Source of the DNA: Planctomycetota bacterium
GTDB taxonomy: Bacteria > Planctomycetota > Phycisphaerae > Phycisphaerales > SM1A02
Direction of reading: 5' to 3'
Length of the DNA: 46,906 bases
Assembly (NCBI GenBank): GCA_003671055.1
Contig: QWPV01000014.1
Span: 1-46,906 of the forward strand
Every line of letters begins with the position of its first letter. Positions within the stretch are counted from its first letter, which is position 1. Made by a program: the position numbers and the translations under genes. Under the pieces are notes generated by a model, which worked only from the letters and a program-made list of their open reading frames with translations, did no database searches and had not been told where the DNA came from. Positions 2,625 through 8,280 of the stretch are shown in pieces.

Positions 2625-3482
2625 ATGTCGATTCGCATGTTCGTCGCTGATCTTGATGGAACCCTCCTTAATGACAAGGGGGAAGTTTCGCGTGGAGCGC
2701 TCGCGGCGATCGAGCGATTGCGGAGTCGCGGCGTCGAGTTTATTCCTGCGACTGGTCGATCGCTTCCTGAGTGCGTGCATGTCATGAAGGCGATCGGGCA
2801 CGAAGGTCGGATGATCGCTGCGGGCGGTGCGCTCGTACATGAGTGTCGTCGCGGTGATGTGCTTTTGCGTCGACCAATCGCCGCGGACCTCGTGAAGCGA
2901 CTTGTTGAAGTTGTCAGTCGACACGGACACCTCGCGCATCTACTGCAAGATCACACCGCAACCACGCACGACTATCTCATGATCGGCGAGCAGGAGTTCG
3001 ATCCTGCGACGAAGTGGTGGTTCGACACGCTTCCGCTGACGTATCGACGCATCGAGAAGTTGACCGACATGGATGCAATGCATCACACCGTTCGTGTGGG
3101 AACAGTTGCACTCGGTGATGAACTCGGCGCGGTCGCGCAGGATGTTGAAGCGACGCTCGGTGGACTTGTGACAGCGCAGCATTGGCCAGCGTTGACTGCT
3201 GAGAAGGCGATCCAAACGAGGACGCATCTTCTCGAGACCTTCGCAGCCCGCGTGAGCAAATGGACGAGTGTTGCTGCACTCGCTGCGCTTGATGGCGTGC
3301 ATCGAGAGGAGATCGCTGCAATTGGCGATGGACTGAATGACTTCGAGTTGATTCGCGAAGCAGGGCTTGGGATGGCGATGGGCAATGCGGATCCTCGCAT
3401 CGCGGCGGTCGCGCGCGTCCAAGTCGCGACGAACAGCGCGGAGGGATTCGCCGAATCCGTCGAACGTGCGTTAGCGTCCTGA
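2625..3482 (+). CDS. Cof-type HAD-superfamily hydrolase
   Basis: The protein has 285 residues from the ATG at 2625. HAD motif I is FVADLDGTLL, with nucleophile Asp9 and acid/base Asp11. Motif II is the PATGRS segment near residue 45. Motif IV is GDGLNDFEL at about 234-242, with the two metal-binding Asp residues. The large cap between motifs II and III is of the Cof/YbiV (type IIB) kind. Such enzymes dephosphorylate sugar phosphates, flavin precursors or pyridoxal phosphate; the substrate cannot be read from sequence. The frame opens earlier at 2586, but DLDGTLL proteins normally begin five to ten residues before the motif. It is transcribed divergently from the 1682-2482 gene across a 142-bp gap. 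Confidence 0.87.
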   Translation: MSIRMFVADLDGTLLNDKGEVSRGALAAIERLRSRGVEFIPATGRSLPECVHVMKAIGHEGRMIAAGGALVHECRRGDVLLRRPIAADLVKRLVEVVSRHGHLAHLLQDHTATTHDYLMIGEQEFDPATKWWFDTLPLTYRRIEKLTDMDAMHHTVRVGTVALGDELGAVAQDVEATLGGLVTAQHWPALTAEKAIQTRTHLLETFAARVSKWTSVAALAALDGVHREEIAAIGDGLNDFELIREAGLGMAMGNADPRIAAVARVQVATNSAEGFAESVERALAS

Positions 3483-3519: not shown

Positions 3520-6500
3520 GTGCACTCAGCTTCTGGCGGCGCATCCGCAGCAAAACCAGCACCCGCTCGACTCGCTCGCGCGGAGGGAGCGGTGTTTCTT
3601 GATGCGTACGAAGCGATTCTCAAGGGTGTGCTTGAGTCGCAAGTCCCTGTGAGTGTTGTCGCTGCGCCGCGTCGAGCGCCCTTTGAACGATTGCAGCGCG
3701 TTGCGAATGAGCCAGAGCATGCGCGCGTGCTTGCCCGTCATCAAGTTGAACTGCTCGTCGGTGGCGATGCGGCGCGCGCGATTTCACTCGCGTGTGCATG
3801 CGTTCGCGGTGGACGCAGCGCGGTTGCGCTTGTGCCCAATGATGAACTTGTGCGAGGCGCTGATGCAGTGCTGCGTGCGAGTGAGAGTTTCGTGAATCCA
3901 GAAGCTGGTCTCGCAGTGCTGTTTGAAGATGATCCGATTCGAGTTCCTGGATGCTGCCCTCGCCGCATCGCACTCGGCGCGGGTCTTCCGACGATTGAAC
4001 CAACCGATCTCTCTTCGCTTCGCAGCAGCATCGAATGGGCATTGCGACTTTCACGCGCCGCAGGAAAGCCAGTCGCGGTCATCATGCATCGCGCGCTGTT
4101 GCAAAGCGCGGACACGATCGAAGCGCGGCCCAACCGCGTGCCAGGAAGCGTTGATGAGTTGATTCTTTCGCGCAGGCAACGGCATGGACCTCGCGCAGGT
4201 GAGGCACTCGATCTTGTTCGCATGGCGCGACGACTTGAGGTCGATCAACTCAGCGCGTTGCCGAGCCCTGGCGAGCGCGAGTTTGTGGGCTTCCTCACGG
4301 TGGGTCCGTGTGACCGCGCGTTGATGCATCTCTTGGATGAGTTCGGACTCGCTGGGCGTGTTCCTGTGTTGCGCCTCGGCATGATCAGTCCCGTCGATGA
4401 CTCGATTCTCACGCGATTTCTCGATCGTGTGCAGCACGCCGTCGTACTCGAGCCGCGTCCGGGCAGCGTGGTCGCGAACGTGATTGAAGTTGCTGAAGTG
4501 ATTCGTCGCCGCGGACATCGCACGGCGAAACTTTGGTGGACAGACATGCCGCCGCTTGAAGACGGCGAAGTGCTTGATCTTCGTCCGGGCGATTCCATCC
4601 ATCCATCCTTGTTGGTGCGAAAGATTCTGCATCTCTTGCATCAAGCACGCCCGAATGCGCAGATCGGACTCAGGCTCGCATCGCAGCGAGGCATGCTTGA
4701 GTCGATCAAACTGCCGATACGCGCGCCCGAGGGCGGCGGCGCAGAAACAATCATTCGAGAGCAGTTTGCAGCACTCGATCAAGAACTACGCACCGATTCT
4801 GTGTCGCACGATGCGGATGAAATCCACACCGTGCTCGCGCTTGATGAACTCCCCGCGCCTGGCGCAGCAGCGCGCACAGTGCTCTGCGAGTTATGGAAGC
4901 GCGCGCGATTTATTGAGGAGGGCGCGGCATCAATCTTGCAAGCGGCGCGTGATCCTGCGCCTCGCATCATCGCGGTGCTTGACTTCATTCCTGGCACCGA
5001 TCCAGATCTTGAACGACTCGCGAGCGCAGCCGTTCCAGCAAATGCAGCGGACCGCGTCATCATCGAGCGTGTGAGCTTGCATGATCCCGCGGCGGTGCTT
5101 GATCGACTGCGCACGGCTGCATATCGCAGCGGCGTTTCCGTGTTGTTCTTCCACGGTGTCGATGCGCGCGGCGGAGAGTCGACAGTGGAAGCGGATCGAC
5201 TTGGCTATCCACCGCAGCAACGACTTGTCTGGCCAGCAGACCTCGCGTGTGAATTGCGCCCACAACTTGCGCCGCATCGCATCGAGAACGGGTTGGAGCG
5301 GGGCGCAACGCCGATCCAAGGGGAGTTCACGAAGAGCGATGCCCCGCGTGTGCCGGGCGTCGTTCGACTCACGATGCAAACGCTGCTTGAGCAAGTGGAA
5401 GTCACGCGAAGCAAGGCGCCGTGGTCAGCGGTTGCACGACTTGGCGGACGACTTCCAACAACGCGACCGCTGCACGCGGAGCAAGGCATTTGGCGCGCGC
5501 ATTTAGCGGGCATTCGTGCGATCGGTGAATCAGGCGTCGCAGACATCCTCGCGGATGCTGGTCGCGCGATGGGATATCGCGTGGAGATTGGATGGGATCG
5601 ATCGCTCGTTGGACTCGGTCGCATGGCGTGGGCGCAAGTGACCTTTACGAAACTCCGCGTTGCTGATGCGCGCTCGCCTTGTGCGGGCATCATTCCCTAC
5701 GGCGAAGCAGATCTCGTGCTCGGTGTGGATGCAGTGGAAACGCTCCGTGCACTCGGACCGGATCCACTGCTGCGAGTTGCGGATGCGCAACGCACTGCAA
5801 TCGTCGCAAACGACGGCGCGCTTGAAGATCAACTCGATCAGGAGTCCATTCGTCGTTGCGCGCTGTTGTTCAACGCCGCACAAATTTCCTGCGTGGGAAC
5901 GCGACGAGTCGTTGCGGATCTTGCAAGTCGCGCGCGCAACGAATTGCTCTCGGAACGACTGCTCGATGTCGCACTTCTCGGGCTCGCGTTCCAGCGCGGC
6001 TTCATCCCCGTGACGATCGAGGCGATTGAGAGTGCAATGCACGCATTCGAAGCGCGCGGATTTGGCCGTAGTTTCGAGGCATTCTGCTTCGGTCGAAGCC
6101 TCGCGGAAGACACCACGACCGCGCGACGCATCACGGAAGAACGCGAAAGCGTGAACGGCGTCATCAGTCGACTGACGTTCGAACTCGTGCGCGAACGATT
6201 CGGCGGTCGTCGCCGCGCGAAACGATTCCGTCAACACGCCACCGAACTCGTGAGGCGGCTCAACGCAACGCGCGCGGGTGCGCTTGACGAAGCAACTGTG
6301 CGCCTCGCCGTCACCGCGTTGCATCGCACATTAGTGTGGGGCGGTTCGCGCGCGCTCTTCCAATACGAAGAGTTACTCGGCGCGCTCATCGAGGCAGATC
6401 CAGAAGGGCGACTCGCGTGCGCTGCAGCAGAGCCACTCGCTGAGGCGATGCTCCCGCGCGACATTTTCTACGTGCTCTCGATGACGACGAGTCTCGAACA

Positions 6501-6870
6501 GCGTCGTCGCATTCGTGAACGGCTCGTCGTGCGCGGCAGTAATGGCGACAAGATGGAACGGCGCTACCTCAATCGCATCGACCTCGCGATCGCAACACGT
6601 CGCTATCGCCTCGACTTCAGATCCAACGATTGGCCCGCAGAAATCGTGCGTGTGCTGCGGCCACTTATCCCGTGGACATTGCGCGGCGACTCACGAGACC
6701 GAGCAATCCGCGCCTGGGCCATCGACTTCGCACGCCGAGTCACCGCAAACTTCAAAGCCGATCCACGACTCTGGCTCGCGCGCATGGAGCAGTTCGCCGC
6801 AATCTCACGCGACGGCGGCCTCCGCGCAATCGATCCGATCGAACTCCGCATCGCCGTCGAAGGCGTATGA
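3520..6870 (+). CDS. Large indolepyruvate/2-oxoacid ferredoxin oxidoreductase-like protein, apparently without TPP and Fe-S motifs
   Basis: A GTG-start frame of 1116 residues begins 37 bp after the HAD gene. Residues about 30-220 resemble the N-terminal pyrimidine-binding domain of fused indolepyruvate:ferredoxin oxidoreductases. Residues about 450-560 resemble the C-terminal TPP domain: RIIAVLDF sits where family members have a VVAVIGDS-type TPP motif, and SGVSVLFFHGV matches the closing strand. Residues about 665-850 match the gamma domain (GRMAWAQVTF, GEADLVLGVDAVETL). The last 260 residues are helical and unassigned. No GDG/GDS-N thiamine motif and no CxxCxxC ferredoxin cluster are visible, so oxidoreductase activity is doubtful. 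It could be a repurposed relative with a structural or binding role. Homology is recognised by eye and subdomain limits are approximate. Confidence 0.7.
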   Translation: MHSASGGASAAKPAPARLARAEGAVFLDAYEAILKGVLESQVPVSVVAAPRRAPFERLQRVANEPEHARVLARHQVELLVGGDAARAISLACACVRGGRSAVALVPNDELVRGADAVLRASESFVNPEAGLAVLFEDDPIRVPGCCPRRIALGAGLPTIEPTDLSSLRSSIEWALRLSRAAGKPVAVIMHRALLQSADTIEARPNRVPGSVDELILSRRQRHGPRAGEALDLVRMARRLEVDQLSALPSPGEREFVGFLTVGPCDRALMHLLDEFGLAGRVPVLRLGMISPVDDSILTRFLDRVQHAVVLEPRPGSVVANVIEVAEVIRRRGHRTAKLWWTDMPPLEDGEVLDLRPGDSIHPSLLVRKILHLLHQARPNAQIGLRLASQRGMLESIKLPIRAPEGGGAETIIREQFAALDQELRTDSVSHDADEIHTVLALDELPAPGAAARTVLCELWKRARFIEEGAASILQAARDPAPRIIAVLDFIPGTDPDLERLASAAVPANAADRVIIERVSLHDPAAVLDRLRTAAYRSGVSVLFFHGVDARGGESTVEADRLGYPPQQRLVWPADLACELRPQLAPHRIENGLERGATPIQGEFTKSDAPRVPGVVRLTMQTLLEQVEVTRSKAPWSAVARLGGRLPTTRPLHAEQGIWRAHLAGIRAIGESGVADILADAGRAMGYRVEIGWDRSLVGLGRMAWAQVTFTKLRVADARSPCAGIIPYGEADLVLGVDAVETLRALGPDPLLRVADAQRTAIVANDGALEDQLDQESIRRCALLFNAAQISCVGTRRVVADLASRARNELLSERLLDVALLGLAFQRGFIPVTIEAIESAMHAFEARGFGRSFEAFCFGRSLAEDTTTARRITEERESVNGVISRLTFELVRERFGGRRRAKRFRQHATELVRRLNATRAGALDEATVRLAVTALHRTLVWGGSRALFQYEELLGALIEADPEGRLACAAAEPLAEAMLPRDIFYVLSMTTSLEQRRRIRERLVVRGSNGDKMERRYLNRIDLAIATRRYRLDFRSNDWPAEIVRVLRPLIPWTLRGDSRDRAIRAWAIDFARRVTANFKADPRLWLARMEQFAAISRDGGLRAIDPIELRIAVEGV

Positions 6871-6900
6871 ACACAATTCAGGCAAAGCGGATTCACCCCA

Positions 6901-7174
6901 CGCGCTCAACCACGCGATTCAGCCGAATGCCGGCTGTGCCGGCGAGGCGTACGAAAGAGAGCGAAACCGCGCGGCGTCCATGCAGTTCAACGAACATATG
7001 GCAACGCGCGGTCAGTCGCGAACGCTAAGACACGCGCTCAACCACGCGATTCAGCCGAATGCCGGCTGTGCCGGCGAGGCGTACGAAAGAGAGCGAAACC
7101 GCGCGGCGTCCATGCAGTTCAACGAACATATGGCAACGCGCGGTCAGTCGCGAACGCTAAAACACGCGCTCAAC
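6901..7174. repeat. 132-bp tandem repeat, two copies plus a short third start, between convergent genes
   Basis: The segment starting CGCGCTCAAC recurs at 6901, 7033 and 7165, giving a 132-bp period. Copies 1 and 2 are nearly identical and copy 3 is only its first ten bases. These ten bases overlap the rlmN stop codon. Each full copy holds the hairpin GCCGGC-TGT-GCCGGC (6929-6943 and 7061-7075). The period is 44 codons, so one plus-strand frame stays open, but this is a side effect of period length. The 303-bp gap 6871-7173 holds only this repeat. Read on the rlmN sense strand, the core (AGCGTTCGC, GACCGCGCG, CTTTCGTA, CTCGCCGGCA) also occurs at 15703-15767, so it appears to be a dispersed family. 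Confidence 0.9.
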
Positions 7175-8280
7175 TACGCACGCACACTTTCGTGTCGTAA
7201 CTGTCCGCACGCGGCGGCGATGTCTCGACCGCGACTGGCGCGGATGTGAACATTCACGCCCTTTTCCCGGAGTAACTCTTGGAAGCGTTGCACGATGCCG
7301 TCTTCAGGGCGATTGAAGGGGACGCCCTTCACTTCGTTGTAGCGGATGAGATTCACATTCGCGCGCAGTGAGTTAGCGAGTGCGGCAAGTTCGAGTGCGT
7401 GCTCGCGGCGATCGTTGAATCCTCCGAGGAGAATGTATTCAAGTGTGACTTCGCGGCCGGTCTTCTTGAACCATTCGTTGCAAGCGTCGAGTAGTTCGGC
7501 GATTGTCGAATATTCAGCCCACGGAATGATCTTGCGACGCAGCTCATCGTTGGGCGCGTGCAGCGACAGCGCGAGCGTGACGGGAATTTCGAAGGTGCAG
7601 AGTTTGCGAATCGCTGCGGGAAGTCCAACGGTGGACACCGTAATCTTGCGCGCGCCGACACCCATGCCCCACGGCGCGTTGATCGTGCGAATCGCTTCCG
7701 TGACTTCGTTGAAGTTCGCGAGCGGTTCACCCATGCCCATGAAGACGACATTCGAAATGCGATCCACGCCATCAAGTTGCGCGAGTCGCCAAACTTGCTC
7801 GACGATCCTTCCAGCATTGAGATTTCCATCAAGACCACCGATGCCACTGGCGCAGAACGCGCAACCAACAGGGCAGCCGACTTGGCTCGACACGCATGCA
7901 GTTTTGCGATCTTCAGTAGGAATCATCACCGTTTCGGTTTGCTTCGACGGTTCGTCGCCCATGAGGCGGATGCCCGTGCCGCTCTGTGCTGCGCGCTCAG
8001 CACGCTCCGCAGCAGTCGGCCAACCGATGAGCAGCTTCTGTGTGTCGTCACTCGCGAGTTGATGCCGAATGACTTCACCATCAAGCACGGTGAATGCCTC
8101 GACGAGTTTCGCGCGCGCGAGCTTTGAGAGATTCGTCATCTGCTCGAAATCGGAAATACCTTTCGAATAAACCCAGTCGAGCACTTGTGGTGCGGCGAAC
8201 TTCGGAAGGCCGAGCGCTTCGAAGCGTTGTTCGAGCGTGGTCGGATTGAAGTTGAAGATGGAGTCGAGAGCAGTGGGCAT
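7174..8280 (-). CDS. rlmN: Dual-specificity 23S rRNA m2A2503/tRNA m2A37 methyltransferase RlmN
   Basis: The 368-residue protein is a radical SAM methyltransferase. The cluster-binding cysteines are in GCPVGCAFC (Cys136, Cys140, Cys143; CxxxCxxC). Other RlmN features are MGMGEPL, VSTVGLP, ALSLHAPND and RASRGRDIAAACGQL. Cys358 in the last motif is the expected methyl-carrying cysteine. It methylates C2 of adenosine 2503 in 23S rRNA and A37 in some tRNAs. The N-terminal helical domain (LEQRFEALGLPKFAAPQVLDW) is intact, and the length is normal for the family. It lies 14 bp downstream of ispH on the same strand, suggesting an ispH-rlmN operon. Its 3' end abuts the tandem repeat. Confidence 0.96.
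   Translation of the reverse strand: MPTALDSIFNFNPTTLEQRFEALGLPKFAAPQVLDWVYSKGISDFEQMTNLSKLARAKLVEAFTVLDGEVIRHQLASDDTQKLLIGWPTAAERAERAAQSGTGIRLMGDEPSKQTETVMIPTEDRKTACVSSQVGCPVGCAFCASGIGGLDGNLNAGRIVEQVWRLAQLDGVDRISNVVFMGMGEPLANFNEVTEAIRTINAPWGMGVGARKITVSTVGLPAAIRKLCTFEIPVTLALSLHAPNDELRRKIIPWAEYSTIAELLDACNEWFKKTGREVTLEYILLGGFNDRREHALELAALANSLRANVNLIRYNEVKGVPFNRPEDGIVQRFQELLREKGVNVHIRASRGRDIAAACGQLRHESVRA

Follow-up and report, generated by a model that had tools for sequence, protein, structure and literature searches.

The pseudo-IOR gene and its parts

The window, that is, the whole stretch of 46,906 nucleotides that was analysed, carries on its forward strand an open reading frame of 1116 codons with a GTG start and zero internal stops, and the preliminary description was right to call its product an intact, long protein. 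The product, here called the pseudo-IOR, resembles the fused indolepyruvate:ferredoxin oxidoreductases (IOR) and was the single match in its own genome in a search at E up to 10. A gene for a HAD phosphatase lies upstream and ends 37 nt before the pseudo-IOR start. The features are as follows.

2625..3482, + strand: gene of a HAD-IIB (Cof-type) phosphatase (Pfam and NCBIfam; DxDGTL in the translation; start codon read from the translation)
3520..6870, + strand: pseudo-IOR, a disarmed fused IOR-like protein of 1116 amino acids (open reading frame, NCBIfam, profile-profile comparison, column reading)
3559..4662, + strand: PYR and transketolase-C-like part, approximately residues 14-381 (Z 27.5 to 6n2n_A over model residues 22-374)
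4735..5169, + strand: core of the former ThDP-binding PP domain, approximately residues 406-550 (Z 11.0 over 113 residues; alignments)
5170..5469, + strand: equivalent of the ferredoxin-type part of relatives, approximately residues 551-650 (column alignments)
5470..6114, + strand: POR (gamma) domain, approximately residues 651-865 (NCBIfam, alignments; fold alignments reaching residue 863-866)
6115..6867, + strand: diverged DUF6537-like C-terminal part, approximately residues 866-1116 (Pfam matches in relatives; collinear alignment)

In what follows f1 denotes the taxonomic family of the window itself, f2 to f6 are other families of the same order and f7 is another family of the same class; L-codes stand for homologous loci or their proteins and G-codes for genomes.

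The pseudo-IOR is depleted in lysine. The median content in 31 f1 proteins was 0.8% lysine and 12.8% arginine, and lysine amounted to 0.4% in five f4 proteins and to 4.9% in 11 motif-bearing relatives. The ratio R/(R+K) was 0.91 for the window protein versus 0.50-0.81 in 11 other open reading frames of the window. Between the genes of the pseudo-IOR and RlmN (6899-7179) there are two tandem copies of a 132-nt sequence, 99% identical, followed by the start of a third. The two-copy stretch matched its own genome 33 times; two congeners each yielded a single short match, a search of ten further genomes yielded none, and a comparison of the window with Rfam gave no match.

Homology to fused IOR and predicted fold

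The NCBIfam model of fused IOR (NF009589, PRK13030.1) matched the window protein with an E value of 9.1e-20, the best stretch covering residues 643-927, and the IOR_alpha model matched residues 29-325 (E 1.9e-4). Both matches fall far below the curated cut-offs, the former with 70 bits against a required 816; motif-bearing relatives miss the 816-bit cut-off too (468 and 431 bits, and 322 bits for L052). No Pfam family scored above cut-off. A profile of 34 f1 proteins nevertheless aligned with one of eight motif-bearing relatives collinearly over the full length (1078 columns, E 5e-111). Judged from these sequence comparisons the similarity to fused IOR is real, the domain order is as recognisable as the preliminary description had claimed, and the pseudo-IOR descends from a ThDP/Fe-S fused IOR. 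The order PYR, PP, POR and, putatively, DUF6537 is common to the pseudo-IOR and the fused IOR family (NF009589 PRK13030.1, NF009588 PRK13029.1). The difference is that the pseudo-IOR lacks the ThDP motif, the PYR-domain glutamate, the proximal-cluster cysteines and six of the seven ferredoxin cysteines, and that its POR motifs are altered.

The C-terminal 260 residues had been left unassigned in the preliminary description, which the alignments do not support. DUF6537 was matched by Pfam at the C-terminus of L042, L047 and L052 and of the diverged L053, and f4 protein L045 barely attained the cut-off; from f1, L051, L058 and the window protein were scanned and had no Pfam match to this family. 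Because the profile-profile alignment continues collinearly through the part that is DUF6537 in motif-bearing fused IORs, the C-terminus can be assigned even though it has diverged, and we read it, on alignment grounds, as a putative diverged DUF6537 and thus as a normal part of fused IORs.

A phmmer search of PDB sequences (E up to 10) found none that match the window protein, and motif-bearing L042 as query gave nothing under E 0.18; the 47-row profile A2 gave weak matches (best 4.4e-7), namely a ThDP-enzyme N-terminal domain protein and a 2-keto acid oxidoreductase subunit. AlphaFold, given the window protein with 34 f1 sequences, returned a model with pLDDT 84.1 and pTM 0.80, for which the best Foldseek matches were pyruvate:ferredoxin oxidoreductases (E 1.6e-11). 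VIA-align superposed the model on 6n2n_A with Z 27.5 and an rmsd of 3.5 over 303 residues, so that the structure prediction, proposed earlier as a check, points to a 2-oxoacid oxidoreductase fold. The predicted fold is alike in 6n2n, 9bt4, 6cin and 1b0p (Z 25.8-27.5), but sequence identity to these 2-oxoacid:ferredoxin oxidoreductases is 10-13% and the pseudo-IOR is without their cofactor-binding residues. In a viral structure library two giant-virus proteins, both ThDP-enzyme-like, matched at E 0.001 or better.

Modelled alone, the former PP region gave a weaker prediction (pLDDT 71.4, pTM 0.56), with no Foldseek match at E 0.001 or better. Re-alignment of the Foldseek candidates gave a top Z of 11.0 (rmsd 3.0, 113 residues). 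Since the best Z of unrelated models is typically 7 to 8, the PP fold, as modelled, probably survives without its cofactor site. All of the 50 matches listed for this region are ThDP enzymes by title or by known function, and some align via the related PYR domain. The fold evidence on models is thus clear for the PYR part and moderate for the PP part.

Loss of the cofactor motifs

Fifteen diagnostic columns were read in an alignment of 88 homologues: the glutamate of the PYR domain, the four cysteines beside ThDP (proximal cluster), the glycine and aspartate of GDG, the asparagine of the same motif and the seven ferredoxin cysteines. The PYR-domain glutamate has a catalytic role. The motifs that PMC4058850 gives as expected for pyruvate oxidoreductases are GDGX24-27NN, four PorB cysteines and CXXCXXCXXXCP. 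The homologues comprised 54 f1 proteins, six f4 proteins and 28 others from f2, f5, f6 and f7; the f1 set includes two proteins from G022 and the fragment L029.

Twelve of the 15 columns scored zero across the 54 f1 proteins. These were the catalytic glutamate (0/54, the region being absent from fragment L029), which is replaced by Ala84 in the window protein, each of the four proximal-cluster cysteines, the asparagine and the last six ferredoxin cysteines. The glycine of GDG was found in 4/54 and its aspartate in 1/54, never together, so that no f1 protein has the Gly-Asp pair. The first ferredoxin cysteine alone is common (46/54). The absence of the ThDP motif and of the ferredoxin cysteines, claimed from the window protein alone, extends at column level to the 54 f1 proteins read, that first cysteine excepted, and a TPP motif sought in several alignments was not found. 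A raw pattern of GDG followed by N does occur in four f1 proteins (L059, L071, L076 and L038); it lies off the aligned ThDP columns and was regarded as chance, because no f1 protein has Gly-Asp at those columns. The retained ferredoxin cysteine is residue 577 of the window protein (window 5248-5250), and 26/31 f1 proteins have an arginine three residues further on. This cysteine could be either a leftover or a residue with a new role.

Opposite the FCPGCPH segment of the relatives all of 31 f1 proteins have gaps, as have 29/31 opposite GDTGC. According to column counts the POR-domain motifs GVGGMG and KKG..RNGG of the nearest relatives are replaced in f1, with R666, R701 and W704 among the family-specific replacements; neither these changes nor the upstream HAD gene figured in the preliminary description. 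At 26 columns the 31 f1 proteins are conserved to at least 93% and at least seven of eight motif-bearing relatives differ from them. The newly fixed residues include R86, R299, R303, D559, H661, R666, W704, R813 and R1055 and are distributed over all domains.

In the six f4 proteins (L039, L045, L046, L049, L050 and L054) the glutamate, the GD pair, the asparagine and the proximal-cluster cysteines are likewise absent from 6/6, and every diagnostic column scored 0 except for one cysteine in one protein. The replacement residues, however, differ from those of f1. Among the 28 relatives from f2, f5, f6 and f7 each column was kept in 27, except for the aspartate and the asparagine (26/28 each). 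The exceptions are L053 of f6, which has lost all of them, L127, in which Asn has become Asp, and L128, in which Asp has become Ala.

The history of this loss was read from trees. As outgroup we used six full-length fused IORs from plasmids of Streptomyces, Rhodococcus, Pseudosulfitobacter, Bradyrhizobium, Massilia and Mesorhizobium; these proteins of Actinomycetota and Pseudomonadota retain GDGT..HSG, CSGCPH, CxxCxxC and GVGGxG. In a careful 30-row tree with this root f1 and f4 formed one disarmed clade (support 100/99), which L053 joined (88/95); L127 and L128, which each carry a single substitution in the ThDP motif, were basal to it (89/88). A quick 52-row tree, from which L051 was among the rows removed to obtain the 30, agreed (98, starred, for f1 with f4 and likewise for L053 joining them). 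The first tree, made without the fused-IOR outgroup, placed L053 among the motif-bearing proteins (98, starred) and gave f1 with f4 a support of 0, and it thus partly contradicts a single disarmed clade. Its outgroup (L091-L093) was homologous over the N-terminal half only, and an AU test on it left f1, f4 and L053 as a single clade unrejected (p 0.356). L053 is a long branch and we are unsure of its placement. With these long branches as a caveat, we take the motif-bearing state to be ancestral and the loss to have been stepwise, as the sequence trees suggest. Copies L001, L031-L033 and L055-L057 had been excluded from an earlier set of homologues, L079-L081 and L087 were excluded from the first tree, and L007 and L029 were outside that set. 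L112-L115, candidate outgroups because of their POR matches, were dropped, having no BLAST match to L042 or to the window protein.

Constraint, gene neighbours and possible role

The pseudo-IOR is under purifying selection and nearly universal in f1, in line with the earlier suggestion that it is selected for some role. With the window protein as query (E 0.001) 36/37 f1 genomes and 15/24 other genomes of the order gave a match. Profile A2 at E 1e-30 matched 164/301 genomes of the order, comprising 115/117 f1 genomes, in some of them as fragments, and 49/184 of other families; in these counts the listed misses start with f1 and show two f1 genomes, G549 and G572, and the 117 misses beyond the listing are taken as belonging to other families. 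As to conservation across planctomycetes, which had been proposed for checking, a draw from the phylum gave matches in 69/294 genomes. Those near full length came from the order and, elsewhere in the class, from G115; most others spanned the N-terminal third alone. Most f1 matches are long open frames, and short ones (e.g. in G023 and G026) sit at contig ends. The profile search marks one stop inside some f1 matches (e.g. in G002, G003 and G009). As the profile match overruns the end of the stop-free frame by a few codons, these were taken as terminal stops, a reading based on those compared rather than on every one. In a search at E 0.01 no member of the POR family was found in the genome of the window or in three congeners; POR enzymes are present in many other f1 genomes.

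Against the three congeners dN/dS (NG86) was 0.063, 0.058 and 0.070, rough ratios since dS was above 0.9 throughout and hence saturated. The former ThDP part evolves fastest within the protein (0.080, 0.085 and 0.114) and is still constrained. The comparison genes gave 0.065-0.096 (RlmN), 0.088-0.102 (IspH) and 0.067-0.095 (HAD). That the gene is decaying without function is the least credible explanation of all: the wholesale loss of ancestral motifs and the f4 open frame L054, which is without most of the C-terminal part, would fit decay, but a dN/dS of about 0.06 and matches in 115/117 f1 genomes, mostly long open frames, make it unlikely unless dS saturation misleads.

The recurring gene order in f1 is RluD, a TPR protein, HAD, pseudo-IOR, RlmN and IspH. 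Among 33 f1 loci with flanks, 27 have the HAD gene immediately upstream in the same orientation, one has it inverted and five lack it. The gap between the two genes ranged from -4 to 123 nt with assumed starts and was -4 at eight loci, and both catalytic motifs, DxDGTL and GDxxND, were intact in all 28 HADs found. Because the surrounding order is conserved as a block, the adjacency of HAD is weaker as evidence for coupling. In the single-contig G034 the HAD gene is retained and RluD, TPR, RlmN and IspH are absent from the flanks examined. Five genomes lack a neighbouring HAD. Among these, a good match elsewhere is present in G004 and G012, and a weak one only (4.6e-8) in G015. G025 and G031 have no HAD homologue in the genome at E 1e-5, and since the pseudo-IOR persists there it has no strict need of the phosphatase. 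At 15 loci from other families the flanks examined contained no HAD homologue at E 1e-6; in four other-family genomes tested HAD homologues exist away from the pseudo-IOR homologue. The disarmed f4 homologues belong to the same clade as the f1 pseudo-IOR but differ in their neighbours, lying between the genes of a 276-amino-acid membrane protein and Rho at 6/6 loci compared (e.g. L045:5942-11613).

We are highly confident that the pseudo-IOR has been repurposed and is unable to perform IOR chemistry; it would carry out no oxidative decarboxylation. Its molecular role we infer. The explanation we favour, at a probability of roughly 55%, is that of a repurposed, cofactor-free pseudoenzyme that has been retained as a partner, perhaps of the HAD phosphatase, with a ligand-binding or scaffold role. 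The retained scaffold would bind a different ligand or partner via newly fixed residues such as R86, R299, R303 and D559, most likely as a non-redox partner of the co-encoded phosphatase, and a functional partnership with the phosphatase itself is put forward only tentatively. The broader proposition, that a near-universal cofactor-free pseudoenzyme on a 2-oxoacid:ferredoxin oxidoreductase scaffold was disarmed once, before f1 and f4 split, and then came to reside in two gene contexts (HAD phosphatase in f1, membrane protein and Rho in f4), is an even bet. No description of the pseudo-IOR was found in the open-access full-text literature.

It is possible, if unlikely, that the protein is still an enzyme, with a new chemistry independent of ThDP and Fe-S that is based on the altered POR domain, the PYR/PP interface or both and uses the newly fixed Arg, Asp, His and Trp residues. 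The 26 f1-specific columns, the strong constraint and the frequent position beside a phosphatase with intact motifs are what such an enzyme might show. Set against this, no recognised active-site family emerged, neither as a Pfam family above cut-off nor as a sequence in the PDB (E up to 10), and the newly fixed residues are scattered over all domains.

We give a similarly low probability to a protein with a structural or regulatory task that has nothing to do with HAD, for instance one that binds nucleic acid by its basic DUF6537-like part. The C-terminal part has a pI of 11.2, the protein persists where HAD is missing, and the f4 homologue adjoins Rho at all six loci. The same part is, however, already basic in the motif-bearing L042, L047, L125 and L129 (pI 9.5-10.9), so its basicity is inherited, and the wealth of arginine accompanies a poverty of lysine. 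The arginine-rich f1 columns, tried as a sign of nucleic-acid binding, are weakened by the same two observations.

A ThDP enzyme with an unrecognised mode of cofactor binding is very improbable: the predicted model does still show a recognisable PP-domain fold, but the Gly-Asp pair, the asparagine and the PYR-domain glutamate are each missing from all 54 f1 proteins, and gaps stand opposite FCPGCPH in 31/31 f1 proteins and opposite GDTGC in 29/31.

The general expectation is that a large Fe-S enzyme should be lost once its chemistry becomes superfluous, instead of being disarmed and retained. In f1 the cofactor sites are gone, yet about 1100 residues remain constrained. Annotation based on similarity could name the pseudo-IOR an indolepyruvate oxidoreductase and ascribe a ferredoxin pathway to its hosts. 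The order of loss could be tested on the graded series of relatives that leads from motif-bearing to disarmed.
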